Shown here: one piece after another, positions 15,731 to 55,705 of the stretch
How positions within the stretch are numbered: the first letter of the stretch is position 1
Layout: each line of letters starts with the position of its first letter
NCBI RefSeq assembly: GCF_001983935.1
Contig: NZ_CP017641.1
Coordinates: 1,488,001-1,552,000, forward strand
From: Fuerstiella marisgermanici
GTDB taxonomy: Bacteria; Planctomycetota; Planctomycetia; Planctomycetales; Planctomycetaceae
DNA length: 64,000 nt
Reading direction: 5' to 3'
Position numbers and translations under genes: made by a program
Notes under the pieces: model-generated
What the model saw: the letters and a program-made list of their open reading frames with translations, nothing else
What the model was told of the DNA's origin: nothing
Database searches by the model: none

Positions 15731-16247
15731 GCTTCGCTCCTTGTGGACACGGTGGACAGTGTAAATCGAAATGATCGGCGAAACATGAAGAACGCCGCTG
15801 CGTGTTGCCAATGCAAATCAAGTGCCAGAGATCAGCGGGGTTCTCACGTGGTCAATGTTCGAGTCGATCCGTCTGAGAAAAGTAGACGCCGGGTTACCTT
15901 GCGAAGTATTGAACTGAAAGGTGGCGTGTCGCCTGCTGACGAGTTCTTTGCGAAGTGAACGTCATTCGCTCGCGCTGCGCTGGCAGCGACCAACGGCGAA
16001 CCGTAAACCTCCCCACTAAAATGGGAGCACGGTTCCTTCAAGTGTGGCCGGGGTTGGACTGAACGCAGCGAAGGAAACCCCGGCGTTTAACTCGTGCCTC
16101 GCTGCAACCATTGCCACATATTTCGTGTGCCATCCGACAAGGATCTCTTCCGTTATCGGTCTCCAACTCTCACCGCAGTACGCGCTCGCAAGGAGGCACT
16201 GGCACTGGCACTCCGACCGGCTAACCAGTCCCTCCGTCTATGCTGAC
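15731..16247. other. Intergenic region left of the first IS3 copy
   Basis: No convincing gene. An inverted repeat GCCGGGGTT/AACCCCGGC lies at 16047-16055 and 16076-16084, and a short GGCACT triplication lies near 16194-16212. The sequence just left of the IS could hold the former promoter of the azoreductase gene. Confidence 0.45.
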
Positions 16248-18870: not shown

Positions 18871-19445
18871 TTATTCTTGAAGTGAACTGACCAGACCCTC
18901 GATTGTGGCCAAGTCGATCTTTTCGCGAGATGTCCAGTCCAGCAATGCCGCAGCTCGGTCTTTCGCCACCGCGTTTACCGGAGGTATCTCGTTATCAGGC
19001 GGATTCAAGGCGTACACGAGAAGATTCACCTGATTGGTCGAAAGCGAGGCGATAGTTCGGGCTATCTGAAGACGCCTTGACGTGTCGATCGTGCCTCCTC
19101 GCTCGATTTCCACCGGGATCCGGTCGAAGAAAATCTGGTAATTATGATGCCCATCCGATGTACCCGGGAAATCAGGAGTGACTTCATCCGGCACTGGGCG
19201 ATTGCCAGCGCTTATGGCACCCAGAAGTATTGCAGTCGCTGACTTCTCAGAGTGACCCACGATATCGGCGTAAACGACGGAACCGAGTAATCCAGCTACA
19301 TTAACTTTCGCCACGCGAACCGGAATTAACTTTCGCTTTTGCCCCAATGGATCATCGCGAAATGCGGCCTGCCATTCCGATGCAGCGAAGTCGGACTTTA
19401 TGTAATCCGGTGAAAGAACTGCGACAGTTCGATCCGTATTCTTAA
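18871..19445 (-). pseudogene. TIR-domain protein, C-terminal fragment (split by ISL3)
   Basis: Continues the gene whose 5' part lies at 20741-22279. Removing the ISL3 element and one ATTCTTAA duplication joins the two exactly in frame. The fragment carries the second half of the TIR domain, including the likely catalytic Glu in AASEWQAAF (residue about 534 of the restored protein). It ends in an all-helical tail of about 65 residues (TSRRLQIARTIASL to the end) resembling effector-associated domains. Without the N-terminal half it has no native start. Confidence 0.85.
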
Positions 19446-20740
19446 GGTCCATCCGGGATTATTGTGGGTAGAGGTCGAGTCCTCCGCAGTAGAAGAGGAT
19501 GGCGGTTTTGAAGTTGTCGCGGTTTCGGTATCCGCCGACTCTTCGTTTGATGGCCATGATTTTGCTGTTCATTCCTTCGGCGACGGCGTTTGTGATTCCG
19601 TGAGTGCAGTAGCTCACCACATTGGCTAAGCGTTCTTTGATCGTGCGAGCGACTTTCTTCATTGGCTCCAGCTTTGTGTGGATGACTCGCTTGTACCAGT
19701 CATTGAAGAACGTCGTGGCCTCTGCCGGAGTGTCATGAACCCAGAGGTCTCGCAGCATCTCCTTGTAGGCCCACGCTTTGCCCGTGAGTAACTCTGCCTT
19801 CCATGCGGCATCAAAGCGTTCCTGCTGTTTTTCGCTGAGATTCTCCTGGCCTGAAAGCCACAGATACCGAGTTCCCGTCAATCGATCATCGCCTTCGGCG
19901 CGAAGCTTCTTCTGCTCCGACCGACGGACCTTGTCGACGGCTTCGGTTGCCAGCTTCATGATGTGAAAGCGGTCGTGCACAATCTTCTGTTCGGCCAATG
20001 CAATGTTGCCTTTGGTGCTCTTGACGTATGCGGCACTCATGTCCATCGCAACCGCCTCCACAGACTGCTTTTCACTGTCGGAAAGCTGATCGAAACAGGC
20101 ATCAGCGGCTGCCGTGTCATGACCATCGGAAATCGCTTCGACAGTGCTCTTGTCCAAGTCATAGATCAGCGTGACGTAGTTGTGTCGTTTTCGAAAGGCT
20201 TTCTCGTCGATGCCGATTCGAGGGAGGTTCTTCGATTGTTTGCGATCCTTCCCGCGAGCCACCGCCTTCTGCAGAATGTGCCACGATTCATCCCATGAGA
20301 TCCCCAGAATGCTGCACGCCCCTTTCACGGTTTGTGTGGCCAGAAGAACGTCGATGGCGAAGCGTTCAAAGAACAATGAGAAGCGGCTGTTCTTTTCCGC
20401 CCAGGGAAGCCTGATCTGTTTGACGCCATGATCCGGGCACTTCACGCGAGGCGTGCGGGCATGAAGGATGGTCGCAAATTGCATCGTGTCCAGATGCCGC
20501 CATTTGCGAGACTTCGTGTGGTCATAGCACGGCAGCTGCCTGTCGCAATCCGGACAGCAAAAAGTTTCGCCCTCGCCATGTTCGACGAAAACGTCGACCT
20601 GTTGAGCTTCCATATCCAGCTGAACGTCCGCCACAAACCACGGCCCCGTCAGTCCCAAAATCTGTTCGTAAAAGTCTGTTCCCTGCATCCCACGAAAACT
20701 AACGAATTAACGCCTCACCCACAAAGAACCCGGATGGACC
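19446..20740 (-). mobile_element. ISL3-family insertion sequence, copy 1 (1,295 bp)
   Basis: Imperfect terminal repeats begin GGTCCATCCGGG. An 8-bp target duplication ATTCTTAA flanks it (19438-19445 and 20741-20748). It interrupts the TIR gene. The second copy at 48932-50226 has the same length and lies in the opposite orientation. Confidence 0.97.
19459..20688 (-). CDS. ISL3-family transposase
   Basis: 409 residues. The N-terminal zinc finger has CPDC and CPDHG pairs, followed by a helix-turn-helix (VKGACSILGISWDESW). The DDE core shows GIDEKAF, AMDMSAAY and AVAEGMNSKI near the C-terminus. The length is normal for ISL3 and the frame is intact. It differs from copy 2 by K to Q in the N-terminal SRKWRH motif. 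Confidence 0.95.
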   Translation of the reverse strand: MQGTDFYEQILGLTGPWFVADVQLDMEAQQVDVFVEHGEGETFCCPDCDRQLPCYDHTKSRKWRHLDTMQFATILHARTPRVKCPDHGVKQIRLPWAEKNSRFSLFFERFAIDVLLATQTVKGACSILGISWDESWHILQKAVARGKDRKQSKNLPRIGIDEKAFRKRHNYVTLIYDLDKSTVEAISDGHDTAAADACFDQLSDSEKQSVEAVAMDMSAAYVKSTKGNIALAEQKIVHDRFHIMKLATEAVDKVRRSEQKKLRAEGDDRLTGTRYLWLSGQENLSEKQQERFDAAWKAELLTGKAWAYKEMLRDLWVHDTPAEATTFFNDWYKRVIHTKLEPMKKVARTIKERLANVVSYCTHGITNAVAEGMNSKIMAIKRRVGGYRNRDNFKTAILFYCGGLDLYPQ

Positions 20741-22597: not shown

Positions 22598-25500
22598 ATG
22601 ACACGGCATGCGAGTCAGGACTCACTGGTTGAGGCAAGATCGCTCATAATCGAGTCAGGCGAGTCTCAAACACGGTTGGCAGAAATGTCAGGCGTTTCCC
22701 GCGTGCAAATTAGTCGAATCGCAAATGGCCGTGTCAGTTCCGTTTCTGAAAAGACGTTGCGACTCCTCAGGCAAGCAGTAGGGGCTGAACGGAAGCGTCG
22801 ACACGAGAATGGAGGTTCAAAGGAATCAGGCTCGACTGACCGCTACAGAGACCTGATCGAGCAAAAGCTGAGCAGGAAGTCGTTTGCAGGGCTCGGCTTT
22901 CCGGAACTGGCACCTCAGCCGTTGGAGGACATCTTCGTAATGCCCGAAGCGATCCGGCAAATCCATGACGAGCCGGCCGATGCTGACTGTGACGACGAAG
23001 TCGCGATGGCTGCGCGGGTCGCGAGAGACCTATACGCTGATTCGCCGCGTGAGAACGAGCGATTGAGCGCCGAAGAAGCCATCCACGCATTTCCCCGTTT
23101 GATAATTCTTGGTTGTCCGGGCTCCGGAAAAACGACGTTCATGCAGTACGCAACTGTGATGACTTCGCGGGGAGATTTTTTTCAGAGTGATTGCCTTCCG
23201 GTCTTTATCAGGCTGCCGGAATTCGCCGCGGCCATGGTAGTGGATCCGAAAGTCGACTTCTTCGGATGGATCAAAGCACGAGTGGAATCGTTGGGGGCGA
23301 GTGAGTTCGGCAAAACGCTTCAGGTATGGTTGGAGGATCAGTCGAAGCGTTTACTTTTTCTGCTAGACGGTCTGGATGAAGTCCCCGATGACACTTCGCG
23401 TATTCGCTTGGTTGAAACAACTCGAAATTTCATCGCAAAATTTGCAGCCAACCGCTTCTGCCTGACATCGCGGCCAATCGGGTTCGACCCGGAGCCGTGG
23501 AGGGCACTCGGTTTTGAAGTTGTCAGATTGCTCGAATACGGTGATTCGCAGATTCGAAAAACGATTTCGAAGTGGTCCCCATTGATACAGACTGGCGACG
23601 ATTTTCAGGTAGCCCAGAACCTGGAAAAGGCGATCTGGGAAAACTCCAGAGTTCGTCAAATCGCATCCAATCCACTGATCCTGACAATCCTTATTTTTCT
23701 TTGCCGCAGTCGGAATTACGTACTACCCAGACGCCGTGTGGATCTCTATGAAAAAGTCGCGGAGGTCTTTCTGGAAACGTGGGAGGCCAGCAAGCGACCG
23801 TCGGGAGAATTCTCAGAAACTCTGGGGATTGATCTGGACGCACGAGATCTGGAGTGGCTTGTGGCGGATCTCGCTTTGCAGATGCAAAGGAACGGGGTGG
23901 TGACCGCCAAACGCTGGTGGATTGAGCAGTGCTGGCATGAAGCCTTGTCAACAAATCTGGGATTTGACGATCAAATCGCGAAGGATGCGACTGCACGGCT
24001 GCTCAGGTTCGTTTCCGGCCGAACGGGAATATTCGAGGAGCGGTCACTGGATCTCTACGCGTTTTCACATCGAACACTTCAGGAGTTCTTTGCTGCGGTC
24101 GGGCTTATGAACGAGGCTGACAATGAGACACACACGGACCTCGAAACCTTGGTTCGCCCCTATCTGTTTCATCCTGAATGGGACGAAACCATTAGGCTCG
24201 TCACAGCGCGCATTACGCCGCCACGGGCAGAACGGCTTGTTCGTTTGATGCTCGATGACTTGGATCCATCGGGGCGATTCTTATATCGTGGTCCGCTGTT
24301 GGCGATGCGTTGTTTGCTGGATGGATCTACGATTGCCAACCGGCAGGTTGTGGACCAACTTTTTCATTCGATGGACCGCCTGGGTGCGTCGCCGTGGCTG
24401 GGCATCACAATGCGTTGCCTCGACCGACTGCGGCAGTTTGAGGGTTCTCGTTATGCTCTTCACGCCAGTCAGGCCATCGGCCGAATAGTTGATCTCGCTA
24501 AGCAGGAACTCGAGCCTGACGATGTTGAAGAGCTTGAAAGTGCAGGATTTGATTTTCCGGAGATCGATGTTGAGAAACTGTCGGCTGAATTCAATAAGCC
24601 TGCTGCAGTAGTAAAGGCTCCACTTGCCGATGGCTCGGCTGAGCCTGTCTACATTCCCAACTTCAAATTGATGAAAGATGACTTTCCAGTCTGGCAAAAG
24701 GATGCAACTCGCCGGTTGCGCGATGCGAATACGCCAAACGAGGTCAAGCATTGTCTAATTGTGCGAATGGCCATGCAGAGCAACGTTCACGCGAATTGCT
24801 TTCCCGTACTTGCAAGAGTTGTCCAGGACGAACCAGATGAGGAACTGAAGGCGCTTACGATATCAGTCATTGGTCGATTCGCAAACGCCGACGAAGGTGC
24901 CGTGGCATTGCTAAAAGGCCTGCTGAGTGAATCGCAGTCAGATACCATCCGAGCTGAAGCTGCATGGGCACTTGGAAGCGTCGCTGACAGTGACGCTAAA
25001 ATCTACAAGATGCTCAGGGATCTGTTGCTCGATGCGAATGAATCAAGTGAAGTGCGTCGAAACGCCGCGCATGCACTGACAGAAGCCGTGGTTAACGATG
25101 CTGAGCTGGTGGATATGATTTTGGTGCTGGCGTATCAAGATTCGCAAAAGGGAGTTCGAATGGCGTTGCTTCATGCGTTGAGAAAGTGCGTTCAGCGGTA
25201 TCGTCATGTGCGTGAAGCTTTTATGGACTGGGCAGCGGGAGAAGGAACGGAGGCCCGTGTAACGTGCCAGATATTGGCTCGTTTGCTGGCGGAAGGGGAA
25301 ATCGAGTGGGATCAGTCATTAAGCCTGCGGATTGAAGAGGTACTGCGCCGAATCGGAATAGAAGACGGGCTTGGAAAACCTTGTCCTCACGTTTTGTCAG
25401 CATTGATCGCTTTGGTTGAAACGCGTGAATCTCGAGGCGGTGTCACGCTTCAGGAGGCTTTGGCAGACGCCTTTGAAAGTATTAAAGACAGGCTGGAGCA

Positions 25501-25816
25501 TTGCTTTGTGTTCGGGTCGACAGCAAGGAACCAGCAGTCAGCTGACAGTGACATCGACGTAATGATGATTGGTGACGTCACGATGGATGTAGTGGCTCCT
25601 CTGCTGAAGAAGGCAGAGCGAATTCTGGGGCGGCAGATCAATCCGGCCATTTACAGCTTAGCGCGTTTTCGAAAAAGGCTGCAAGACGGTAACCACTTTA
25701 TTGCTACGGTCATGCAGGAGCCAAAACTGCCAGTTCGCTGGGCAGGGAATTCAATGACGGAAAAGGAGCTAGACGATGAGCTTAGAGCTATGGCGTCGGA
25801 ACGGTTGGTTGGTTAG
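22598..25816 (+). CDS. HTH-NACHT-HEAT-nucleotidyltransferase fusion (STAND NTPase)
   Basis: 1,072 residues; TAGGGG precedes ATG 22598. Domains in order: an XRE-like helix-turn-helix (about 14-60, TRLAEMSGVSRVQISRI); a NACHT NTPase with Walker A GCPGSGKTT (172-180), Walker B LLDGLDEV (D257, D260, E261), sensor LTSRP and the C-terminal FSHRTLQEFFAA motif near 489; HEAT-like repeats (about 680-900); and a C-terminal MNT-type nucleotidyltransferase with GSx10DxD (G973-S974, D985, D987). STAND NTPases sense a trigger and oligomerise. MNT domains neutralise HEPN toxins by modifying them. The stop overlaps the HEPN gene by 41 bases, implying coupled translation. The frame is intact. The antiphage role is inferred. 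Confidence 0.88.
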   Translation: MTRHASQDSLVEARSLIIESGESQTRLAEMSGVSRVQISRIANGRVSSVSEKTLRLLRQAVGAERKRRHENGGSKESGSTDRYRDLIEQKLSRKSFAGLGFPELAPQPLEDIFVMPEAIRQIHDEPADADCDDEVAMAARVARDLYADSPRENERLSAEEAIHAFPRLIILGCPGSGKTTFMQYATVMTSRGDFFQSDCLPVFIRLPEFAAAMVVDPKVDFFGWIKARVESLGASEFGKTLQVWLEDQSKRLLFLLDGLDEVPDDTSRIRLVETTRNFIAKFAANRFCLTSRPIGFDPEPWRALGFEVVRLLEYGDSQIRKTISKWSPLIQTGDDFQVAQNLEKAIWENSRVRQIASNPLILTILIFLCRSRNYVLPRRRVDLYEKVAEVFLETWEASKRPSGEFSETLGIDLDARDLEWLVADLALQMQRNGVVTAKRWWIEQCWHEALSTNLGFDDQIAKDATARLLRFVSGRTGIFEERSLDLYAFSHRTLQEFFAAVGLMNEADNETHTDLETLVRPYLFHPEWDETIRLVTARITPPRAERLVRLMLDDLDPSGRFLYRGPLLAMRCLLDGSTIANRQVVDQLFHSMDRLGASPWLGITMRCLDRLRQFEGSRYALHASQAIGRIVDLAKQELEPDDVEELESAGFDFPEIDVEKLSAEFNKPAAVVKAPLADGSAEPVYIPNFKLMKDDFPVWQKDATRRLRDANTPNEVKHCLIVRMAMQSNVHANCFPVLARVVQDEPDEELKALTISVIGRFANADEGAVALLKGLLSESQSDTIRAEAAWALGSVADSDAKIYKMLRDLLLDANESSEVRRNAAHALTEAVVNDAELVDMILVLAYQDSQKGVRMALLHALRKCVQRYRHVREAFMDWAAGEGTEARVTCQILARLLAEGEIEWDQSLSLRIEEVLRRIGIEDGLGKPCPHVLSALIALVETRESRGGVTLQEALADAFESIKDRLEHCFVFGSTARNQQSADSDIDVMMIGDVTMDVVAPLLKKAERILGRQINPAIYSLARFRKRLQDGNHFIATVMQEPKLPVRWAGNSMTEKELDDELRAMASERLVG

Positions 25817-26979: not shown

Positions 26980-27307
26980 AGAGAAAACGGCACTTACTGT
27001 TGTGACGGCGGAAGAGAGTATGACGAAGCCGGAACTGGACGTCAGCGTGGAGTTGATTCGAAGGCGAGCGACCGCTTAAACGCGATCGTTGCCTTTCCGC
27101 ACAGGCACGGGGCGATTTCATCGCCCACTATAAAGGGGTTGTTGTCTATGCAGAAAGGCCGTTCAGAAATCCTTACGCCTCATCGACCGCAATAGGCAAG
27201 AAAGGCGGCACAACCGATCTCTATCCAGAGTCCGCCGAGAACCAGTGTTTTCCCGTCTTATCTCGCCACGACTCGTCATTTCCTGAAGCGGGGATCAGTA
27301 CCAAAAG
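26980..27307. other. Intergenic region before tRNA-Sec, no gene identified
   Basis: No convincing coding sequence or RNA. It may contain remains of the toxin gene lost after the AbrB antitoxin. Confidence 0.4.
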
Positions 27308-27400
27308 CGGAAGTGGATGGGAATCGAACCCACCAGGCACGGGTTAACGCGCCTCAACGGTTTTGAAGACCGCGACGATCACCAGATCGCAATCACTTCC
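27308..27400 (-). tRNA. selC: tRNA-Sec (anticodon UCA)
   Basis: Read on the minus strand, the sequence folds as a selenocysteine tRNA. The acceptor GGAAGTG pairs with CACTTCC. A six-pair D stem (GCGATC...GATCGT) has only a four-base loop, as is typical of Sec tRNA. The anticodon stem encloses CTTCAAA with anticodon TCA. A long variable arm (AGGC...GCCT) and a T arm with GGTTCGATTCC complete it. CCA is not encoded. An integrase gene starts about 150 bases from its 5' end. Confidence 0.92.
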
Positions 27401-27442
27401 GGACTGTAAAAACGCTGGTAATAACAACATCCCCCGAACGGT

Positions 27443-27470
27443 TTAAGATTTCGTACTACCCGCGTATACT
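27443..27470 (+). promoter_or_regulatory. Candidate promoter of the integrase gene
   Basis: TTAAGA (27443-27448) and TATACT (27465-27470) are separated by 16 bases, a fair sigma-70-like match upstream of the integrase. Confidence 0.35.
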
Positions 27471-27552
27471 ACCGGTAACGAAAGTTGCCCCCGCCGGATT
27501 GCAGCCAGCGGAGGCAGTGCCCCAACGCCCCGATTCGAGGAGAATTGTGACA

Positions 27553-28782
27553 ATGCCCAAGGTAGGAACCCCGCCCGCCGCCGTCCAGCCGAAGCCAACC
27601 AAGAAATCAAAGAAGACAAAGCTCAGCAAGCCACCGAAACCGTACAAGGACTTCCCATTGAGCCCCCACAACAGTGGCAAGTGGCAGAAAAAAATAAACG
27701 GGAAGATTTACTACTTCGGAAGATGGGGCCGAGTGATTGGCGGTCGACTTCGGCGAGTGGAGGGTGACGGCTGGCGAGAGGCTTTGGAACTCTACACTCA
27801 GCAGAGAGATGACCTATACGCCGGTCAAGCCACCACGGCCGACGGAGAGCAAATAAAACTTAAAGATGTCGCCAACCACTTTCTCACAGAGAAGGAGCGG
27901 CTGCTGGACTCGGGCGAACTGTCGAAACGAACGTTCAAAGAGTACAAAGAAACCTGCGACAGACTTATAGCGACATTTGGCTCGAATCGGTCAGTCTCCA
28001 CTTTGGCGCCGGGGGAATTCTCCAGACTGCGTGCATCAATTGCAGAGAGTTGGGGGCCAGTACGCCTTGGGAACGAGGTCGGACGAATTCGCGGGATATT
28101 CAAGTACGCCTACGAGGCCGACCTGATCGACAAGCCAGTTAAGTTTGGCCCGACGTTCAAGAAGCCAACGGCGAAGACCCTTCGCAAGCATCGGGCTGGT
28201 CAGCCAGAGAAGTTCTTCGAAGCCTGCGAGATCAATGCGATGCTGAAAGTCGCGTCGCCAGTGATGAAAGCGATGATCCTCCTCGGCGTGAACTGCGGCT
28301 TTGGTCCAACCGATTGCGGACTGTTGAAGAAAGAGGTTGTCGATTTAGACGGCGGTTTCATCGACTACGCAAGATCGAAGACAGGTGCGTTGCGGAGGAA
28401 CCCTCTTTGGCCCGAAACCATTGCGGCCATTCAAGGTGCAATGTCACCTGCAGACTCGGAACTCGTGTTTGTAACGTCGCAGGGTAATCCGTGGTCAAAC
28501 GGAACCGACCAGATGGTGTCCGGGCAAATGAGATTTGTGATGGAAGACGCCGATTGCTACGTTGCCGGTCGCGGACATTATGCGTTGCGGCATGTGTTGG
28601 AAACGATTGGCGGCGAGTCGAAAGACCAAGTGGCCGTAGACGCTCTTATGGGCCACATCGACAGCAGCGTGGCAGCGACGTATCGAGAACGCATCAGTGA
28701 CGAGCGGCTTGTCCAAGTTACTAGCTGCGTCAGGAATTGGCTCTTCGGAGAGGGTGGAGATCATGACCGACGTGTTCCCTGA
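27553..28782 (+). CDS. Tyrosine recombinase/integrase of planctomycete type
   Basis: About 409 residues from ATG 27553; a GTG at 27547 or ATG at 27499 is also possible, and GAGGAG lies just upstream. The N-terminus is basic (Lys/Pro-rich), followed by a SAM-like core-binding domain and a catalytic domain with HYALRH as box II, LMGH, and the nucleophile Tyr in ATYRERI. At the usual box I Arg position the sequence reads CGFGPTDC, with no Arg. The gene sits next to tRNA-Sec and heads a set of element genes (28763-33642), so it probably catalysed integration near this tRNA. Confidence 0.85.
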   Translation: MPKVGTPPAAVQPKPTKKSKKTKLSKPPKPYKDFPLSPHNSGKWQKKINGKIYYFGRWGRVIGGRLRRVEGDGWREALELYTQQRDDLYAGQATTADGEQIKLKDVANHFLTEKERLLDSGELSKRTFKEYKETCDRLIATFGSNRSVSTLAPGEFSRLRASIAESWGPVRLGNEVGRIRGIFKYAYEADLIDKPVKFGPTFKKPTAKTLRKHRAGQPEKFFEACEINAMLKVASPVMKAMILLGVNCGFGPTDCGLLKKEVVDLDGGFIDYARSKTGALRRNPLWPETIAAIQGAMSPADSELVFVTSQGNPWSNGTDQMVSGQMRFVMEDADCYVAGRGHYALRHVLETIGGESKDQVAVDALMGHIDSSVAATYRERISDERLVQVTSCVRNWLFGEGGDHDRRVP

Positions 28783-29830: not shown

Positions 29831-32608
29831 ATGCCAATTGTATCCGAACGACGTTCCGCAGCAACGAGACATCGGCGATTGCCACGAGAACTTTTGGAAT
29901 CGCTCAACCGTCGAAAGCGTTGCAAATTCCAACTCGTCAACGGCAGGGCGAATATGCTCGACGACCCGGAGTGGGATTGCGATGCCGCTGAACAGGAGTG
30001 CGATGATGAGGATGTTGATGACGATACTTGGGGAAGGCGAAAGCTGGAGTCTTCCGGCCTCAAAGCCAAGACGATCAGCGATGCTCAGATCACCGTGAAT
30101 TCTAGTACTGACCACTTAGACAGAATTCTCAATCGAGATGACGTGCGAAGTGCCGGCATCGTATTCCCCTTCTTCGATCTGTCAGCAAACCCAATCGAGT
30201 ACCATACCGTTAGATTTCGCGTTCCGCACCGCTTCGGGGGGAAGAAGCCGCGAGTCGCAAAGTACCTTTGCCCAACGGGCGAACCCAACCGCAGCTATTT
30301 TCCTCCAGATGCTATCGCTGCAATCAACGCCGGTGAGCCGCTGTTGATTACAGAGGGTATCTTGAAGGCCCTTGCGTCGACGCAAGCTGGTTGTCCCTGC
30401 ATCGGATTGATGGGCGTGTGGAATTGGATGGCTCCGCAAAGTGACGACGAGAAAAATCAAGACGCACCACGACGCCTCATCGCAGACCTCAGTCAAATAA
30501 GGTGGGAAGGCCGCGATGTCATAGTCATGTTCGACTTTGACAAGAAACGTAACAGCAAAGTCAACCTCGCAGCCGTGAGGCTGGCAGAAGTCCTCACTCG
30601 TCAAGGAGCGAATGCACGTATCTATACGCCGCCGAGAGCTGGGTCGGCAAGGGCAAAGAAGAACGGGATAGATGACTGGATTTGCCGCAGGGGCGAGGCC
30701 GAATTCGCAAACCGCGTGAAGGACATGTTTAGTTTACGACGATCGCAAACGATCGACGTCGTCCGCCGACAACGACAATCAACCAGACGCCACATGATGG
30801 AGCAAGATGAGGGTGGGATTTTCTTGGATCGATCCGCCACAGGTTCTGGCAAATCTCACATCGACACCGACACGATTCGTAGGCTGAATTTGGGCGAACG
30901 AGCACTCAACCTGCAGCCAACTCATGCCAATTGCCAAGAGGTTCTTGCCAGCGACCGACAACATGGCATTGAGGATTCCGCCGCATACCCCAAGCATGAC
31001 CCGGTCACGTGCCCCAATTTTTCGGATGCAAATAAAGCCCAACTACACGGTTTGAGTTTTCGATGGGCCGTGTGCCCCGACTGCAGCTATCGAAATTCGT
31101 GTCTATATCTGAGTCAGTGTGCAGAGGCCAAAGAGTCACTACACATGATCGCGACCCATAAGAGAGGCGAACTAACCATGCAACAAATAGCATCCGGTAC
31201 AAAGTACATCGCAATCCACGAAGACCCAATAGCGATGCTGAGACCTCAATATGTCGCTAAACGCGGACTCGCGACTATTGAGCAAATCGCACGAGAGGTC
31301 CTACAGAAAGTATGTGAAAACGATGTTGAGAAGCACTACTTTCAGAGAATGGCAGCGATAGCGAAAGATTTTGATGGCTACCGACGCCGTGCGATTAAAA
31401 CAGAGAACATTCCACTCCCAGAACGTGCCAAACACTGCCCGGCACGCAAGCGAATTGATCAATGCATCTGGGAGATCGTTCATGAGAAGTATGCCCTGAA
31501 TCGGGAGGCAATGCAGCTAGTTAGGTGCGCCACTGACGGACGCCTTGTGAGTCTCGTTGCTGCGGTCGACGAGTTTTTTGGCGTAGGTGGGAAGCGCAAG
31601 TTGACGCGTCGACTGGTCGGTAACTGTGCCACGCCCTTGCCTCGTCGAGCGAAAATCGTGATTAACGATGCTACGGCAAGTTTAAAGTCGCTTGCCGCCG
31701 CCACAGAACGTGAAATCCACGACATCACCCCAGAGGCAATTCCCCGTACCATCAATCCAACCGTCCAAATTCCAAGAGACGTTACACGGCGAGCATCTAG
31801 AGACTCCGTGGCCGATACGTTGCGAGGGATCATTCATGATATTCCGTATCAAAAAATTGGCTTGATCACTCACAAGAATCATCTTGACGACGGACTTATC
31901 CACTCTCTGGGGGAGGCATACCGTGATAGGGTGTCGACCTTCGACTGGTTCGGAGGCACTAAATCTCGTGGTAGCAATGAATGGTACAAAGATTGTGATT
32001 GCATGATCGTGCTCGGCACACCTCGCGTTGCGCCAGCCGCAATTCGTGAACACCTCATTCGACTGAATAAGCCATGGGCCGCAAGAATTCGCGCTGCCGC
32101 TGCCGGTTGGCCAACGAGGGAAAACGGAGGAACACTCGACGCTTGGCTTGGCAAGGACGAATCAGGCCAACCAAGGGTGGTAAGGACTGGACACTATGCA
32201 GACCACGATTGGCACGATGCGTACACGGACTTAGTCACGGCCCAACTGAAGCAAGCAATAGGGCGTGCGAGAGGGTGTCTAACAGATGGAATTCGGTGCT
32301 ATGTCGTTTCGACGGAGAACATCTGCTGTTCGGACCCGCAAACGTCGCTAATGGGGGCTGGCGCGTTCGCGTCAGACGGCCCGCAAGCCTTCTTGTCAAA
32401 ATTTCCGCTTCCTCCATTAAAACTAGCTGATGTGGCGATTCTGGACCACTTAAAAAACGGGGACAGCTCGGTGCCAGTTCCGACGCGAGAACTGGCGGCT
32501 GTGCTTGGGGTCGCCGAATCTACCTGTCGGGAGCGTCTTCAAAAACTTGAGAAGGCGGGGCGTGTACGAAGAGTTGGCCAGCGAAAAGGGTGGATTGCTT
32601 CTTCGTGA
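29831..32608 (+). CDS. Toprim (DUF3854-like) and helicase-like replication protein
   Basis: 925 residues; AAAGGA precedes ATG 29831. A Toprim/DUF3854-like region near 165-240 shows LLITEGILKALAS and VIVMFDFD. A P-loop ATGSGKSH follows near 337-344. A Cys cluster (CPNF...CPDCSYRNSC...C, about 394-430) may bind zinc or an iron-sulfur cluster. Downstream are a DEAD-like ATPase remainder and a C-terminal winged helix (ELAAVLGVAESTCRERLQKL). The layout suits a primase/helicase that replicates an excised mobile element. No classic primase polymerase domain is recognised. Confidence 0.75.
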   Translation: MPIVSERRSAATRHRRLPRELLESLNRRKRCKFQLVNGRANMLDDPEWDCDAAEQECDDEDVDDDTWGRRKLESSGLKAKTISDAQITVNSSTDHLDRILNRDDVRSAGIVFPFFDLSANPIEYHTVRFRVPHRFGGKKPRVAKYLCPTGEPNRSYFPPDAIAAINAGEPLLITEGILKALASTQAGCPCIGLMGVWNWMAPQSDDEKNQDAPRRLIADLSQIRWEGRDVIVMFDFDKKRNSKVNLAAVRLAEVLTRQGANARIYTPPRAGSARAKKNGIDDWICRRGEAEFANRVKDMFSLRRSQTIDVVRRQRQSTRRHMMEQDEGGIFLDRSATGSGKSHIDTDTIRRLNLGERALNLQPTHANCQEVLASDRQHGIEDSAAYPKHDPVTCPNFSDANKAQLHGLSFRWAVCPDCSYRNSCLYLSQCAEAKESLHMIATHKRGELTMQQIASGTKYIAIHEDPIAMLRPQYVAKRGLATIEQIAREVLQKVCENDVEKHYFQRMAAIAKDFDGYRRRAIKTENIPLPERAKHCPARKRIDQCIWEIVHEKYALNREAMQLVRCATDGRLVSLVAAVDEFFGVGGKRKLTRRLVGNCATPLPRRAKIVINDATASLKSLAAATEREIHDITPEAIPRTINPTVQIPRDVTRRASRDSVADTLRGIIHDIPYQKIGLITHKNHLDDGLIHSLGEAYRDRVSTFDWFGGTKSRGSNEWYKDCDCMIVLGTPRVAPAAIREHLIRLNKPWAARIRAAAAGWPTRENGGTLDAWLGKDESGQPRVVRTGHYADHDWHDAYTDLVTAQLKQAIGRARGCLTDGIRCYVVSTENICCSDPQTSLMGAGAFASDGPQAFLSKFPLPPLKLADVAILDHLKNGDSSVPVPTRELAAVLGVAESTCRERLQKLEKAGRVRRVGQRKGWIASS

Positions 32609-48931: not shown

Positions 48932-50226
48932 GGTCCATCCGGGTTCTTTGTGGGTGAGGCGTTAATTCGTTAGTTTTCGTGGGATGCAGGGAACAGACTT
49001 TTACGAACAGATTTTGGGACTGACGGGGCCGTGGTTTGTGGCGGACGTTCAGCTGGATATGGAAGCTCAACAGGTCGACGTTTTCGTCGAACATGGCGAG
49101 GGCGAAACTTTTTGCTGTCCGGATTGCGACAGGCAGCTGCCGTGCTATGACCACACGAAGTCTCGCCAATGGCGGCATCTGGACACGATGCAATTTGCGA
49201 CCATCCTTCATGCCCGCACGCCTCGCGTGAAGTGCCCGGATCATGGCGTCAAACAGATCAGGCTTCCCTGGGCGGAAAAGAACAGCCGCTTCTCATTGTT
49301 CTTTGAACGCTTCGCCATCGACGTTCTTCTGGCCACACAAACCGTGAAAGGGGCGTGCAGCATTCTGGGGATCTCATGGGATGAATCGTGGCACATTCTG
49401 CAGAAGGCGGTGGCTCGCGGGAAGGATCGCAAACAATCGAAGAACCTCCCTCGAATCGGCATCGACGAGAAAGCCTTTCGAAAACGACACAACTACGTCA
49501 CGCTGATCTATGACTTGGACAAGAGCACTGTCGAAGCGATTTCCGATGGTCATGACACGGCAGCCGCTGATGCCTGTTTCGATCAGCTTTCCGACAGTGA
49601 AAAGCAGTCTGTGGAGGCGGTTGCGATGGACATGAGTGCCGCATACGTCAAGAGCACCAAAGGCAACATTGCATTGGCCGAACAGAAGATTGTGCACGAC
49701 CGCTTTCACATCATGAAGCTGGCAACCGAAGCCGTCGACAAGGTCCGTCGGTCGGAGCAGAAGAAGCTTCGCGCCGAAGGCGATGATCGATTGACGGGAA
49801 CTCGGTATCTGTGGCTTTCAGGCCAGGAGAATCTCAGCGAAAAACAGCAGGAACGCTTTGATGCCGCATGGAAGGCAGAGTTACTCACGGGCAAAGCGTG
49901 GGCCTACAAGGAGATGCTGCGAGACCTCTGGGTTCATGACACTCCGGCAGAGGCCACGACGTTCTTCAATGACTGGTACAAGCGAGTCATCCACACAAAG
50001 CTGGAGCCAATGAAGAAAGTCGCTCGCACGATCAAAGAACGCTTAGCCAATGTGGTGAGCTACTGCACTCACGGAATCACAAACGCCGTCGCCGAAGGAA
50101 TGAACAGCAAAATCATGGCCATCAAACGAAGAGTCGGCGGATACCGAAACCGCGACAACTTCAAAACCGCCATCCTCTTCTACTGCGGAGGACTCGACCT
50201 CTACCCACAATAATCCCGGATGGACC
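48932..50226 (+). mobile_element. ISL3-family insertion sequence, copy 2 (1,295 bp)
   Basis: Same ends (GGTCCATCCGGG) and length as copy 1. The 8-bp duplication ATTCAATT lies at 48924-48931 and 50227-50234. Inserted near the 5' end of the kinase-like gene, in the opposite orientation to copy 1. Confidence 0.97.
48984..50213 (+). CDS. ISL3-family transposase, copy 2
   Basis: 409 residues with the same zinc finger, helix-turn-helix and DDE motifs as copy 1, differing by one visible residue (SRQWRH for SRKWRH). Intact. Confidence 0.95.
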   Translation: MQGTDFYEQILGLTGPWFVADVQLDMEAQQVDVFVEHGEGETFCCPDCDRQLPCYDHTKSRQWRHLDTMQFATILHARTPRVKCPDHGVKQIRLPWAEKNSRFSLFFERFAIDVLLATQTVKGACSILGISWDESWHILQKAVARGKDRKQSKNLPRIGIDEKAFRKRHNYVTLIYDLDKSTVEAISDGHDTAAADACFDQLSDSEKQSVEAVAMDMSAAYVKSTKGNIALAEQKIVHDRFHIMKLATEAVDKVRRSEQKKLRAEGDDRLTGTRYLWLSGQENLSEKQQERFDAAWKAELLTGKAWAYKEMLRDLWVHDTPAEATTFFNDWYKRVIHTKLEPMKKVARTIKERLANVVSYCTHGITNAVAEGMNSKIMAIKRRVGGYRNRDNFKTAILFYCGGLDLYPQ

Positions 50227-50724
50227 ATTCAATTCTCCAAGGAGTAATTCGGACTCAACGCTCCATAATGAGACGCCGAACTTGGCAGTCATGGATTGCA
50301 GCATAGTTTCTGCTGTCTGCAGATTGCCGCTAACAATAGCACAGTGAAAGTGTTCGGAAAGTTCGTAGACTTGAAGTGTGGTTTCTCGTTTCGACTTTAG
50401 TATACTGGCTGTAAATTCGATTGCAGCCTGCAGCGTCTTCGACGCTATCGGGGAACGAAGTCGGCAGAGTGTTTTGACTCGACGAGGGAATTCCGAAGGC
50501 AGTATTCTCCCTCGCGTTTTCGGATCAGCCAGTAACCTCGAGACGAGTTTGTCGCGAGCCGGCATTGATAAATTGGTCAAATTGGCGACGGTGCCTGAAT
50601 CGAATCCGCTTCGAATCTGATCGATGTACCGCTTAGATTCACGGTCGAGAGTTTTCTGTTTCTGTACTCGCCTCTCCCGCTCTTTGCGCTTTCTCAATTT
50701 GTTTTTCTCACTCTTCCGATTCAC
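50227..50724 (-). pseudogene. Kinase-like sensor (DtcA-like), fragment 1: N-terminus
   Basis: GTG 50724 is preferred because GGGGAGGGGG lies 5-6 bases upstream; TTG 50748 is an alternative. The first 30 residues are very basic (RKSEKNKLRKRKERERR), then helical with TPR-like character. It is the first of five fragments (50724 to 40083) that restore a protein of about 1,167 residues in one frame when four ISs are removed. It is first in the ancestral operon with the receiver and receiver-hydrolase genes. Confidence 0.87.
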
Positions 50725-51071
50725 CGTCTGCCCCCTCCCCAAGTCCAACAGGTCCCCTCGCTAGTGGAACAAGTTGTTAGCCATCTTCGATCGCACCCAG
50801 CAGATATTTAGAATACCACACCGATCACACAAAGAACAGAATGGCGGCGTCGCGAGATGCGGCCCTAAGCTGATTGCTCTACTTTATTCACTCGCACAAC
50901 CTCGATTTGTATTCCCCATGAGTTTAGGTACTGTGGTTTTGTGGGATCGTGATCCACCTATGGTGAGGACGTGTAACTCTGGCTAGGCAAGACGGGTGTG
51001 TTGTTGCGTGCCCAAGCCACCGGTAAGAGGGTTTCCAGCTACCGCTATTCGAGAAGGCTGCCGTGCACGGT

Positions 51072-51155
51072 GCGATTGCCGTTAACTTGAAGGCCGTTTT
51101 AGGATCCGGTGGCGTTACTCTCAGAGATTATGCTGGCGGAGGGGCTACTTGCTAG
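51072..51155 (+). pseudogene. Fragment resembling the C-terminal region of Fpg/MutM
   Basis: A 27-codon frame reading AIAVNLKAVLGSGGVTLRDY resembles the segment of formamidopyrimidine-DNA glycosylase around its conserved GG-TLRD(Y/F) motif, just before the zinc finger. The zinc finger is missing and a stop follows. Upstream sequence is only weakly alignable. Assigned from motif memory alone. Confidence 0.5.
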
Positions 51156-51185
51156 TAGAATCGTCTACTGGCAGTAAGGCACCGT

Positions 51186-51209
51186 AAGAGGCTAACTGCG
51201 TAGCCTCTT
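51186..51209. terminator. Hairpin AAGAGGCTA/TAGCCTCTT
   Basis: A perfect 9-bp stem with a 6-base loop between the Fpg-like and SelD-like fragments. There is no clear T run, so the terminator role is uncertain. Confidence 0.4.
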
Positions 51210-51338
51210 GGCGACGATTTCTTCGCCGCTCCATGCATCCGCACGACGGATAAGTTGCTGGCGTCAGGGTAGACGATGGACCGGCAAGAGCGCACCTGCT
51301 CGAGCTACTCAAGAATTCGATTGCCACGGTGCGAGTGT

Positions 51339-51548
51339 TTACGTCGTCTGGATAAGCACGCTATCCGGCTTTTGGTTGACGACTTCGCCGATGGCGATCG
51401 CCGTTGTGAGAGCTGCCTCGACCATTGCCGTTTCGAATTCCTGCACTAACGGCTTTGGAACGCCCAACAATAGACCGCTGCAGGTTTGAGCATCGAAGAG
51501 GGCTTTGTATTCGGGGCGTGACTGGACGTCCGAAGTCGCCGTAATGAG
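51339..51548 (-). pseudogene. selD: SelD (selenide, water dikinase) C-terminal fragment
   Basis: Reads ALFDAQTCSGLLLGVP, the counterpart of the SelD hallmark FDPQTSGGLL, then a helical end and stop TAA at 51339. SelD makes selenophosphate, the selenium donor for Sec-tRNA. The IS3 copy 2 insertion (duplication GAG) separates it from a short upstream piece at 52827. The changed residues (A for P, CS for SG) suggest decay or divergence. Confidence 0.7.
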
Positions 51549-51583
51549 TGAGGTGGTACAGGTTTCAGGGACAGGTCATTCTC

Positions 51584-52408
51584 TTATTTTGGGAGATTGA
51601 TGATCTGTTCGAACTGAGCTGGCGACCTGTAATCGAGGCTGGAGTGTCTGCGTTCGTGAACGTAGTAGCGGACGTATTTTGACATCTCTCTTCTTGCCTC
51701 TGCCTTGCTTTGGTAATCGGTCATTTCGAGTTCGTTCTTGATCGTTCCGAAGCAGCTTTCCATGGATGCGTTGTCATAACAGTTGTCAGCACGGCTCATG
51801 CTTTGTGTGATTGCTGCCCGACGAAGAATTGATCGGTATTCATTGCCAGCGTACTGGCCGCCTCGATCCGTGTGGTGAATCAATCCAACGTCAGGCTGTC
51901 GTTCTTTGATGCTCGAACGCAGTGCTTTGAGGACCAGCTGTTCCGTCATGTTGTTATCCAGATGCCAACCAACGATCCGCCGGGAAAACAGATCCATCAG
52001 CATCGCCATGTAGCAAAACGTCCCGTCAGTCAGCGGGATGTAGGTAATGTCTCCAACCCAAATTTGATTGATCGTTGTTGGGGCGTCCGCATCGAGCAAC
52101 AGGTTCGGCGAATAGCCCAGTCGATGACGGCTGTCTGTCGTTTTTGGAACGAACGACTTCGGCTGAATTGCCTTTAATTTAAGGGCTTTCATGACATTCG
52201 AGACCTTCCTGCGATCACAGAGAAGTCCCATTTCCTTGAGGTCTTCGGCAATGCGACGAGCCCCGTAGCGGCGGCGGTGACGCTTAAAGATGACTCTTAT
52301 CAACGGAGCCAGTTGAGCATCCTGTTCTTCAAAGATCGTGGGCTCAGCAGTCTGCCAGGCATAAAACGAAGTTCGGTTCACACCGAGATGACGACAGACT
52401 TCGGCCAC
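51584..52408 (-). CDS. IS3-family transposase OrfB, copy 2
   Basis: 274 residues in the isolated frame, same DDE motifs as copy 1 (WVGDITYI, HTDRGGQY, NASMESCF). It is expected to be made as an OrfAB fusion through the A7G slippery tract (T-run at 52489-52495, plus strand), just upstream of the OrfA stop. Confidence 0.94.
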   Translation of the reverse strand: MAEVCRHLGVNRTSFYAWQTAEPTIFEEQDAQLAPLIRVIFKRHRRRYGARRIAEDLKEMGLLCDRRKVSNVMKALKLKAIQPKSFVPKTTDSRHRLGYSPNLLLDADAPTTINQIWVGDITYIPLTDGTFCYMAMLMDLFSRRIVGWHLDNNMTEQLVLKALRSSIKERQPDVGLIHHTDRGGQYAGNEYRSILRRAAITQSMSRADNCYDNASMESCFGTIKNELEMTDYQSKAEARREMSKYVRYYVHERRHSSLDYRSPAQFEQIINLPK

Positions 52409-52458
52409 GTTTCCATGACCTTCCTGAACAATCGCTTCAACGGCCGCATAGACGTCAG

Positions 52459-52761
52459 CTATTCGTTGCGGCCGAAAATAGCCAACGCTTTTTTTAGTAT
52501 GTCCCTCTCACGTTCGACACGCCGCAGATCGGCTTCGAGGTCCTTGACCTTAGCCTCCAAAGAGCTTGCCACTGGACCACTTTGTTCCAGCTGCTCCTGT
52601 TTCCAGCGATACAAAACGTTGACGTTTGAAATGCCCAACCGGTCCACAACCTGAGGAGCCGTGTACCCATCCAGAAGCAGCTGCACGGCTTCTTCTTTGA
52701 ACTCATCCGTGTACTGACGGCGAGACGATTTCTTGACTGATGTTTTTTTCTTCCGAGACAT
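52459..52761 (-). CDS. IS3-family OrfA, copy 2 (intact)
   Basis: 100 residues from ATG 52761 with AGGACC upstream. A basic start (MSRKKKTSVKKSSRRQYTDE) precedes a helix-turn-helix (QVVDRLGISNVNVLYRW) and a leucine-zipper-like tail. It binds the IS ends and supplies the N-terminus of the OrfAB transposase. Confidence 0.93.
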   Translation of the reverse strand: MSRKKKTSVKKSSRRQYTDEFKEEAVQLLLDGYTAPQVVDRLGISNVNVLYRWKQEQLEQSGPVASSLEAKVKDLEADLRRVERERDILKKALAIFGRNE

Positions 52762-52826
52762 CCTGAGGTCCTTTCTACGGACTCAGAATAAGAGATTCAC
52801 GTGTCCCTGAAACCTGTACCACCTCA

Positions 52827-52950
52827 GAGTTGCTCGACGGTTCGGTTGTTGGGAGCCAGCGTGCTTTCGATGCGGCGGTCACTTACTGAAGACGTGCTGG
52901 GACTCCTGACATGCGGGAAGCATCAACGCTACGAAAAACGCCACCTCAGT
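52827..52950 (-). pseudogene. selD: SelD upstream remnant
   Basis: Reads IESTLAPNNRTVEQL, which joins the fragment at 51548 in frame when IS3 copy 2 and one GAG are removed. The frame is blocked by a stop about 30 codons upstream and no ATP-binding part of SelD is seen, so the gene was already truncated or shifted. Confidence 0.55.
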
Positions 52951-52977
52951 TGTACCAAGGCGGCGTAGTCGTGCTTC

Positions 52978-53199
52978 TCAGAGGAGCAAAAGATCTGTTT
53001 CCTGATCATCTTGGTCTCTTAGGATGATCCGAACCTCCCCCTGCTTCGCCTCCCAAAGATGCTCGTACACTGCTAACGCTCGTCGTATCACTTCCGTGGA
53101 ACTCGCCGCGTCTGACAGCTTCTTTAGCTTCATCAATCTCTTCTGCTCCGGCGGACTGATCCGAAGATTCAACCGCTCGGATTTCTGATGTGTGGCCAT
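52978..53199 (-). CDS. Ribbon-helix-helix (CopG-like) protein
   Basis: About 73 residues from ATG 53199 (53205 also possible). LNLRISPPEQKRLMKLKKLS is the beta strand and first helix, and SSTEVIRRALAVYEHLWEAK the second helix of an RHH DNA-binding domain. It is probably an antitoxin-type or plasmid-type regulator. Its start lies inside the 3' part of the membrane-protein frame at 53006-53443. Confidence 0.75.
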   Translation of the reverse strand: MATHQKSERLNLRISPPEQKRLMKLKKLSDAASSTEVIRRALAVYEHLWEAKQGEVRIILRDQDDQETDLLLL

Positions 53200-53443
53200 C
53201 GCCATCCCTTCTCCACTGCAGGATAAACACAGTGGCTCCAAAAAGGAGAATGAGGACCGCTACGGAGAATACGGCAGACCAATGCGCACCGTACCAAGAC
53301 AGGAAAAACGCGATCGAAACCAGAGCTGCCAATGTCACAGTAAAGTAGTACCGTGGTGAAGGCAGCTGAGATACCTCGTGGATTCCCGCTCTCCAAGCGG
53401 CGTAATCAGGCTGAGACCTTCCATCTTTCTTGTCGTCCATCAA
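53006..53443 (-). CDS. Small two-helix membrane protein overlapping the RHH gene
   Basis: 145 residues. The first 85 look real: two hydrophobic helices (about 35-50 and 57-75) after a polar start (DDKKDGRSQPDYAAWRAG). The last 60 overlap the RHH gene in another frame and are low-complexity, so an earlier stop may have been lost or the tail may be junk. Function unknown. Confidence 0.5.
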   Translation of the reverse strand: MMDDKKDGRSQPDYAAWRAGIHEVSQLPSPRYYFTVTLAALVSIAFFLSWYGAHWSAVFSVAVLILLFGATVFILQWRRDGDGHTSEIRAVESSDQSAGAEEIDEAKEAVRRGEFHGSDTTSVSSVRASLGGEAGGGSDHPKRPR

Positions 53444-53885
53444 TTACGCTCCATTCAATATTCGAATGGGAGCGTAGCGATGAACGCAGGAACGGAACCA
53501 AAGTCATAAGACTGGGTCTCCCATTCTGCGTTTCAACGCCTCGCCAGTGAGCGGCTGTTCTAACATCATTAATGAACGCTTCAGTGACCATCCACGAATT
53601 CAGCACGTTAGCACCGTCGACTCAGCAGGAAGGTGAAAAAACGTAAACGATTTATTGAGCAACACGCTCAACTGTTGCTGGAACATCCCCAACAGTTTTG
53701 AATGGGCCTCTCCTCTCAAGGCGTCAGAAAAGCACACTCTTTCTCGATAGCTAAGACAGAATCTTCTGGTCACATTAAGACCTGTCTATCGGAACGTTAA
53801 GGGAGATGTATTGTACGTACATCTGGCTCAGTTGTCAACAAGTTGGCCCGTTTGTTTAGCGACAATTAGTTTTCCCGATCTCGTT
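53444..53885. other. Intergenic region, no gene identified
   Basis: A/T-richer than its surroundings. Contains GATGTA...TACATC near 53802-53821, a possible operator. Nothing else was found. Confidence 0.4.
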
Positions 53886-55705
53886 GCCTCAACACAAAAT
53901 GTTACCGAAATCATGAGATTGATTTGATGGTAATGGAGGCTCCTGAGACGTGCCCAGGAGCCTCCGGCGCTTTGACGCACCGTCGAGTCAGCTATCCCTG
54001 GTGAGTTGCGTCTCCGCAGCGCTCACTTCTGTTTCACTGACTGACGGAATCGTAACACATCGATTCGTCATCTTTGAACACCCGAGCTGATGCCTCGAAA
54101 ATCTCGGGGGTTTGGGGGCTGGCCCCCGGCTCCGTTTTCCGGCTCCGTTTTCGGTATCGACATCGATGGAATGTCGGCGTCTTCCAGGCAGGCGTAAACC
54201 ATTTTCTTCGCCATAACCTGTCGCCATTGTTTCACGCGACGCTGAAGTGTCCGCAACAATCCGTCCGAATACTCATCCGGATACTCGTTCTGTAGACGTT
54301 CCAGCAGTGCCTTTGCCGTGACGTCGGGCTGCTGTTCAAGCCACTCCAGAATCTGAGGCCATACGTTCACGAACGGGTCCACTCGTGTCCGATAGTCTCG
54401 TGGCTTCGTCGCTTGTTGCCGGTGAGTCGGCCGCGCATCACCGGTCATCCACAGAGTCGGGAGCTCAGAAAGAAACTCGGCCAGTGACTTTGTGTCGGGA
54501 TGATCGATTGTTGTGCCAGACAGACTCGCCAATGCCGCCTGGCATTCTCGAATACGATGTAACAGTTCAACCGGATCGAGCGCGTCTCGTGTCGCACGGA
54601 GAATTTCTTTCTGCTCCCGAGAAATCTTTGAATGATCAAGCAATCGATCGCATGGAGTTTTCGGACTTTGAAATTTCCGTTTCAACTTCGAGCCATCGCG
54701 GTGCTTTGACAGCAGTTTGAACGATGGCTGAAAGTAGTTCACGTATAGTCGCACAGATTGGTAAAGAGCCCCCAGAGTCTGACCGGCGACGATGCCGGAA
54801 AACCGCTCTGACCCAACAAATTTGCGAATGATCGCGCCGTTCTTCTGCTCGATCCACGCCTGATCGTTGCTCTTGTATGGTCGTGAACGAGTGAATTCGA
54901 TTTCCTGCTGCTCGCAGTATGAAATTAACGTCTCGTTGATGAACGCACTGTCATTGTCGGAGTTAATTCCTCGAATCGCCATCGGAATCTGCCGAGCGAG
55001 CACAGTCAGTCCTTCGACAACAAGAGACTGTTCTCGCGCCAGCAATGGCACAGCTTCCGTCCAGCCGGAACAGACATCAGTGATCACCAGGCTATGGATC
55101 TTCTCGCCAGCCGGTTGCCCACCGCAATGGACCACAAAGTCAATTTCGGTATACCCCGGATCGGGCTCATTCCAGTCCGCAAACGTCTTAACCTTGACTG
55201 CCTGTGCAGACTTCGTCCGCGTACGTTTCTTCTTTCGTTTTCTGGCGACGTCACGATTGGGCTTCAGCAGTCGATCCAGAGTTGAAGCGCTTGCGGCCAG
55301 CAGTTTCCGTCGAACCTCAGAAGCAAGCGTCACGTGACCATGCCTCTCCATCGATTCCACGTACTGCGGCATAACGGACTTCAGGCGCTTGCCGCAGATC
55401 CGATCGGCAGCCTCCCAAACGACAACCAATGCCTCATGAACTGCCAGGTCGTAGACCTTCCGGCCCTGCTTTGTATTTGGGCTCACGTGCAACTCGGGAT
55501 CTCGATTCAAAAGTCGAATTGCATGCTTCCGATGGACGCCGGTCAAGGCGACAAACTCATCAAGAATCTTTGACTTGTCCAACTTACGTGCAACCTGATA
55601 ACGCAAACGCAATGCCGCGACCACTTCGTGCCGCGATGAAATACTGACGACGTCGTTCATGGAAGGCCTCCCCGATACCGATTTCGGTAACTCTTGGTTG
55701 AGGCA
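53886..55705 (-). mobile_element. ISNCY-like insertion sequence (about 1,820 bp)
   Basis: Ends share TGCCTCAAC and, about 10 bases inside, GTTACCGAAATC in inverted orientation. No target duplication is evident. An 11-bp perfect hairpin (GGAGGCTCCTG/CAGGAGCCTCC) lies inside the left end at 53936-53967. It carries one transposase gene. Confidence 0.75.
54068..55660 (-). CDS. ISNCY-like transposase with rve integrase core
   Basis: 530 residues. The N-terminal part has a helix-turn-helix (FVALTGVHRKHAIRLLNRDP) and a basic linker (ARKRKKKRTRTKS). The rve core shows YTEIDFVVHCGG (Asp), INSDNDSAFIN (Asp) and NDQAWIEQKNG (Glu). The C-terminal part is helical. Intact. Confidence 0.88.
   Translation of the reverse strand: MNDVVSISSRHEVVAALRLRYQVARKLDKSKILDEFVALTGVHRKHAIRLLNRDPELHVSPNTKQGRKVYDLAVHEALVVVWEAADRICGKRLKSVMPQYVESMERHGHVTLASEVRRKLLAASASTLDRLLKPNRDVARKRKKKRTRTKSAQAVKVKTFADWNEPDPGYTEIDFVVHCGGQPAGEKIHSLVITDVCSGWTEAVPLLAREQSLVVEGLTVLARQIPMAIRGINSDNDSAFINETLISYCEQQEIEFTRSRPYKSNDQAWIEQKNGAIIRKFVGSERFSGIVAGQTLGALYQSVRLYVNYFQPSFKLLSKHRDGSKLKRKFQSPKTPCDRLLDHSKISREQKEILRATRDALDPVELLHRIRECQAALASLSGTTIDHPDTKSLAEFLSELPTLWMTGDARPTHRQQATKPRDYRTRVDPFVNVWPQILEWLEQQPDVTAKALLERLQNEYPDEYSDGLLRTLQRRVKQWRQVMAKKMVYACLEDADIPSMSIPKTEPENGAGGQPPNPRDFRGISSGVQR

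Follow-up and report, generated by a model that had tools for sequence, protein, structure and literature searches.

In enterobacteria, the tRNA-Sec gene selC is a site for genomic islands such as LEE, which are found 3′ of the tRNA gene. Of the 3,919 islands counted in Islander, a 3′ tRNA fragment marks 3,760 and a 5′ fragment 159 (PMC4383910). Given this ratio, and because integration of the archaeal pTN3 type has been described, integration on the 5′ side is known but, as far as these sources extend, rare. A further mode, tRNA-dependent lysogeny, is outlined in PMC10865867 as using a short core (∼10 bp), with a tRNA gene that is not rebuilt and an element that carries a spare tRNA.

The locus described here belongs to Fuerstiella marisgermanici, whose genome is a single contig (C1) of 8,920,478 bp. 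The analysis started from a stretch of 64,000 nucleotides (C1:1488001–1552000), referred to as the window; positions without the prefix C1 are window positions. The locus resembles the 5′-tDNA islands of Islander in having a complete tRNA, a same-strand 5′ fragment displaced upstream of it, an integrase gene inside the interval and a crossover that would fall in the anticodon region; neither a family devoted to the 5′ side nor planctomycetes are described in the parts of that report used here (PMC4383910). With the pTN3-type elements it has in common a shared tRNA 5′ half of 41 bp and a rebuilt tRNA that would be separated from its own promoter (PMC5495485, PMC8371274). In contrast, the pTN3 integrase gene is split on integration, whereas the F. 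marisgermanici integrase is a whole frame of 427 aa beside the tRNA; in addition, pTN3 belongs to Archaea and uses tRNA-Leu. The likeness drawn here is one of layout. Unlike tRNA-dependent lysogeny as given in the source above, the locus has a 41-bp core and a complete tRNA-Sec.

A truncated copy of selD interrupted by an IS3-type element

Alignment with the genome's own selD placed the fragment on the minus strand and resolved it as the last 83 codons, the stop codon (51339–51341) and 7 to 8 bp beyond it (8 bp of continuing homology in the window). The 3′ part (51331–51544, minus strand) shares 91.6% identity across 214 columns with C1:1587653–1587865 (E value, 7e−84), and the 5′ part (52829–52871, minus strand), truncated at 52871, shares 93% identity across 43 bp with C1:1587869–1587911 (E value, 3e−12). 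DNA identity of 92 to 93% to the intact gene establishes descent from selD. The original prediction, made from the window alone, had recognized a SelD C terminus split by an IS3 element and lacking its ATP-binding part, to be given up if alignment showed that the fragment was not SelD. Alignment identified it as SelD, with the two pieces lying around 51549–52826 and covering the last 83 codons only; the N-terminal ATP-binding and catalytic region is absent from the fragment. The interval proposed for it (51339–52950) does contain a genuine SelD fragment, but selD homology stops at 52871, and the suggested alternative of a redundant copy was right in outline, but the copy is a 5′-truncated scrap within an island and no second gene.

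Searching the genome with the fragment stretch identified no selD copy beyond the intact gene. The left flank (50214–51346) matched only itself in the genome; the right flank (52828–54067), apart from its own position, matched an IS end and the selD piece. Translated searches of both flanks against 223 other loci returned no match. The fragment is a dead, 5′-truncated copy of the selD 3′ end, debris that was later cut by the IS3-type element.

This element (51549–52826, minus strand, 1,278 bp) was delimited using its sequence ends, transposase domains and genome copies. It is flanked on both sides by GAG (51546–51548 and 52827–52829), its ends, as read from the sequence, are inverted, and its transposase carries rve and HTH_21 domains. 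An HTH and rve transposase, inverted ends and a 3-bp duplication are the characters of the IS3 family, and this element shows all of them. Genome-wide, eight full copies, including the one in the fragment, and two interrupted copies were found. The interrupted copies (C1:1475716–1478344 and C1:8630593–8633221) each hold an insert of ∼2.6 kb at the same place, and the insert in the first contains a 727-aa frame that by eye is serine recombinase-like.

The selenocysteine system of F. marisgermanici

The intact selD gene (C1:1587660–1589942, minus strand) is fused to a pyridine nucleotide-disulphide oxidoreductase and scored 260 to 263 bits against TIGR00476 (cut-off, 125), while its score against TIGR04369 ("fusion_not_SelD") was 412, below the cut-off of 700. 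It is adjoined by selA (506 bits; cut-off, 268), and selB lies at C1:2822687–2824543 (336 bits; cut-off, 242). As predicted, the window includes a complete tRNA-Sec (selC), located by ARAGORN at 27307–27400 on the minus strand (Rfam RF01852, 79.7 bits) and read here as rebuilt at the island end.

Six formate dehydrogenase matches were obtained, five of them without an internal stop; the weak sixth, which has a TGA, was formylmethanofuran dehydrogenase subunit B (FmdB). The gene (C1:5981081–5982421, minus strand; L170:2081–3421) has the in-frame TGA at SL-U-HGP, which we take to be the catalytic Cys/Sec position, and with the TGA read as Sec the product covers positions 1 to 420 of the 421 in TIGR03129 (492 bits; cut-off, 327.8). 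On this sequence evidence, FmdB is likely a selenoprotein. No SECIS could be shown after the FmdB TGA, where the hairpin was nonsignificant (z = −1.14).

Because selD, selA, selB and tRNA-Sec are intact and FmdB has an in-frame TGA, the fragment is no sign of selenocysteine loss. The main suggestion of the original prediction had been that selenocysteine synthesis was lost and selC remained as a relic, to be checked by a genome search for selD, selA, selB and UGA-containing selenoprotein genes. The fragment itself would indeed be unable to act as a working SelD, but that search recovered all three genes intact together with FmdB, and the suggestion is refuted, with next to no probability left to it. 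A Sec-containing FmdB and a full set of Sec genes, in the order selA-selD-selC, have been reported for another planctomycete (PMC4807772). F. marisgermanici resembles it in its complete Sec gene set and probable FmdB selenoprotein; neither an island at selC nor a displaced tRNA half is mentioned in the parts of that report used here.

A proposed island at the anticodon loop of selC

In F. marisgermanici, selD and selC are 72 kb apart. The 5′ half of tRNA-Sec, 41 bp comprising nucleotides 1 to 40 and one further base (27361–27401, minus strand), has a perfect second copy at C1:1587172–1587212, on the tRNA strand and 448 bp past the stop codon of intact selD. The scan for both tRNA-Sec halves covered 130 kb around selD and selC and found this one extra 5′ half; no extra 3′ half was found there at the tolerance used. 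A gene encoding a tyrosine integrase of 427 aa (27499–28782, plus strand) is divergent from tRNA-Sec, its start lying 99 bp from the tRNA 5′ end and pointing away from it. The frame is whole, contained in an open frame of 471 aa, with matches to PF00589 (28.4 bits; cut-off, 27.1) and to phrog_1 integrase (E value, 1.5e−25). Between the two genes, the direct repeat GGTAGTA occurs twice with a spacing of 13 bp, at position 73 (27454–27473, minus strand), and provides candidate integrase arm sites. Downstream of the integrase lies a gene for a DUF3854 primase-like protein of 925 aa (29831–32608, plus strand; PF12965, 81.4 bits; phrog_849 DNA primase, E value 3.5e−9).

The proposed island would occupy 27361–64000 of the window and extend 35 kb past its end to C1:1587171, where the displaced tRNA half begins. 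The fragment lies within it, with selC 24 kb and selD 48 kb away. The pairing of the fragment with tRNA-Sec in the original prediction thus pointed to something real, in that both belong to one island locus.

We consider it likely, and hold this with good confidence, that the dead, IS3-cut selD 3′ end lies inside an island of ∼72 kb integrated by the tyrosine integrase at the anticodon loop of selC. The integrase would have recombined with this loop, the island supplying its own tRNA-Sec 5′ half and the DNA upstream of that half, and the native 5′ half would have stayed behind next to selD. Transcription of tRNA-Sec would now start in island DNA, presumably at an island promoter. The 72 kb would have arrived by this integration and been enlarged later by insertion sequences. 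The fragment would derive from the selD-selC junction, either carried along from a site that the island occupied earlier or duplicated locally.

Within the proposed island, a 1.9-kb IS with an rve transposase is present as direct, near-identical copies (C1:1541852–1543778 and C1:1579245–1581171). They enclose ∼35 kb, including an outer-membrane efflux gene; no common outer duplication was seen by eye that would mark the pair as a composite transposon. On the 3′ side of selC, the window holds a gene for a NACHT-HEAT protein with an HTH and a nucleotidyltransferase-like end (22598–25816) and a frame that by eye is TIR-like (18871–19452); these are possible defence genes.

selD-selC order and selC sites in relatives

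In two relatives (G012 and G007), tRNA-Sec starts no more than ∼80 bp after the end of the SelD match, on the same strand. It follows selD at 1.6 to 3.4 kb, again on the same strand, in three others (G001, G002 and G004) and lies 3.7 kb from selD in G040. Altogether, 18 relatives had a selD match, and in the remaining 12 tRNA-Sec was on another contig, far off or without a strong match, in part because the assemblies are drafts. The ancestral selD-selC order is therefore taken from a minority, since most other genomes have tRNA-Sec elsewhere or far away.

In G002, inspection by eye showed a selC 5′ half beside selD that is broken at the anticodon; the complete selC is adjoined by an integrase remnant containing stops. 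Judged from these sequences, G002 appears to represent a decayed form of the same selC integration event. By eye, G001 (locus L048) has a degenerate tRNA-Sec copy directly after selD and a complete tRNA-Sec 3 kb further on (15972–16065).

The tRNA-Sec search yielded 30 loci (29 tRNA-Sec and one tRNA-Ser), and eight of them contained a second kind of integrase, 26% identical to that of the window across 177 aa and always on the 3′ side of tRNA-Sec. It therefore appears that integration at selC has occurred on both sides of the gene in these bacteria. Whole integrases of this other kind converge on the tRNA-Sec 3′ end in G004 (L053, 923–2230) and G005 (L071).

A Planctomycetota integrase family associated with tRNA 5′ ends

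Homologs of the window integrase were identified in 69 of the 148 genomes searched, its own genome included. In a first set of 30 integrase loci, a tRNA gene lay directly upstream on the opposite strand in 24. A second set, from named genomes, comprised 80 loci kept from 183 found (8 shared with the first set), with titles naming a planctomycete group in 75 of the 80. A divergent tRNA was present within 700 bp upstream in 65 of the 76 loci that had at least 700 bp of upstream sequence, and a codirectional one in a single locus; no tRNA was found within 700 bp downstream of the integrase in any of the 80. Seventeen anticodons were used across this set, tRNA-Sec accounting for two loci, and none of the 80 loci had a SelD match at an E value of 1e−3. 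The pattern is weaker in viral contigs: 18 carried integrase relatives, of which five begin no more than 55 bp from the locus edge; a divergent tRNA was found in 4 of the 13 others.

Displaced tRNA halves were sought in 17 regions, 4 of them short (4.5 to 15 kb) and 13 of at least 40 kb. Ten of the 13 longer regions had a displaced 5′ half (first 30 bases, at most one mismatch). All ten share the strand of the tRNA and are found 4 to 72 kb from it on the side of the integrase; identity breaks off 2 to 7 bases after the anticodon. No displaced half was found in the four short regions or, among those of at least 40 kb, at F. marisgermanici's own tRNA-Arg site or in G071; the G115 region gave only matches to a tRNA array, with six mismatches. 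Arrays of unusual tRNA-like genes occur at or near integrase sites in G136 and G115 (L127–L133), and these arrays may be the integrase target there.

With spacings of 9 to 17 allowed, an exact direct 7-bp repeat was present between tRNA and integrase in 59 of 66 loci, compared with a mean of 2.8 and a maximum of 8 after base shuffling. The spacing was 12 bp in 52 of the 59, and the repeat started 72 to 79 bases from the tRNA in 42. These repeats are candidate integrase arm sites. A promoter consensus upstream of the family tRNAs was also considered: TATAAT-like sites with at most one mismatch were found in 20 of the 66 loci against ∼10.5 in shuffles, TTGACA-like sites showed no clear excess over shuffles in the same loci, and the consensus was set aside.

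The catalytic register was set by profile alignment with XerA and XerD. Of the R-K-H-R-H/W-Y catalytic set of tyrosine recombinases, K294, R364 (the second R) and Y395 were present in all sequences of an alignment of 13 integrases and H386 (the later H) in 12, while the box-I arginine position was occupied by Gly and the first His by Tyr in 12 of 13 each. R299, a candidate substitute for the box-I arginine, was also present in all 13. A motif search of the 80 loci recovered 49 frames, all with Gly at the box-I position, a count that is not unbiased because the motif required neighboring residues. The box-I arginine is likewise missing or shifted in the IntCTnDOT and IntDes subgroups, and in IntDes Tyr also replaces the first His; those are Bacteroides and Desulfovibrio groups, and planctomycetes are not mentioned in the main text of the report (PMC8138268).

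On balance, it is probable that this is a large Planctomycetota element family whose integrases, with Gly in place of the box-I Arg and Tyr in place of the first His, routinely cut tRNA anticodon loops and replace the 5′ half along with the DNA driving it. Numerous host tRNAs, including this tRNA-Sec, would thus be transcribed from mobile DNA, and an upstream neighbor could end inside an island, as the selD tail did here. A literature search found no planctomycete family of 5′-side tRNA integrases. A family within one phylum that is devoted to this side, with this layout and active site, is absent from the literature searched and in that sense new.

Origin of the selD fragment

Apart from IS copies, nothing but the fragment matches between the island and 58 kb of flanking DNA, and the gene from which it derives is the one next to the insertion site; both points favor a link with this locus. 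It differs from intact selD at 20 of 249 nucleotides, distributed 9, 2 and 9 over codon positions 1, 2 and 3. In the same stretch, same-genus relatives are 39 to 55% identical, and a single match was found in each of the 18 relatives that had any. Eleven residue differences between fragment and intact gene were compared with these 18; two reflect decay in the fragment, two favor an older split, and seven are tied or undecided. All 18 relatives have the P and G of FDPQTCGG, which are altered only in the fragment. At tail positions 29 and 51, the K and E of the fragment occur in 2 and 7 of the 18 relatives, and the R and K of the intact gene in none. This comparison weakens the case for a foreign origin, so that local duplication and capture at a former site of the island next to another selD stand about even. 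Neither a tRNA half nor an integrase was found beside the fragment (best local score, 12; shuffled maximum, 14), and among nine other elements searched for outer-flank pieces, none was clear (eight without a match and one weak match of 52 bp at 77%). Both observations argue against capture as the mechanism.

An old duplication of the genome's own selD tail, through ectopic or IS-associated repair, would require no transfer between hosts and would leave the reading of the island unchanged. We regard it as plausible, somewhat short of an even chance. The source would be a neighboring gene in the same orientation, the identities of the same-genus relatives mean that none examined is a better donor, and the altered P and G are as expected of a dead copy. 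However, the residues at tail positions 29 and 51 are those of relatives and not of the supposed parent, the third-position share (9 of the 20 changes) weakly suggests some time under selection, and the truncated edge at 52871 has neither a repeat nor an IS end. That the island instead sits in the selD 3′ end, with the fragment as its displaced end, was considered and rejected because the displaced selC half follows intact selD and no tyrosine-type integrase occurs among the frames scanned next to the selD end.

The position of the same displaced half also bears on a Campbell-type single crossover between the host's selD and a circular molecule with a selD tail, which would leave 48 kb between two tails and need no site-specific recombinase for that part. 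It predicts two directly oriented selD tails at this distance, as are present, but the half follows intact selD and not the fragment, and the circle would for that reason also have to bring a selC half from a donor island; we judge this course very improbable. That insertion sequences built up the interval between selD and selC piece by piece, with the 41-bp half left by a smaller, older element, is unlikely, if less so than the crossover. Many IS copies are common to the island and its flanks, and the direct 1.9-kb copies 35 kb apart would fit such growth, but both ends of the 72 kb show the exact layout of nine other elements of the family, and the integrase frame is whole. Integration of the island at the selC anticodon loop remains the favored account of the 72 kb.

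Implications for tRNA genes in Planctomycetota

The mode of tRNA-targeted integration seen at this island is rare, and one integrase family of the Planctomycetota relies on it consistently. For mapping islands in these genomes, it offers a mark composed of a tRNA, ∼75 bp, two spaced heptamers and a divergent integrase. If the proposed integration is correct, a mobile element provides the DNA from which a tRNA, in this instance tRNA-Sec, is transcribed, and in F. marisgermanici it would have separated the selA-selD operon from its selC.
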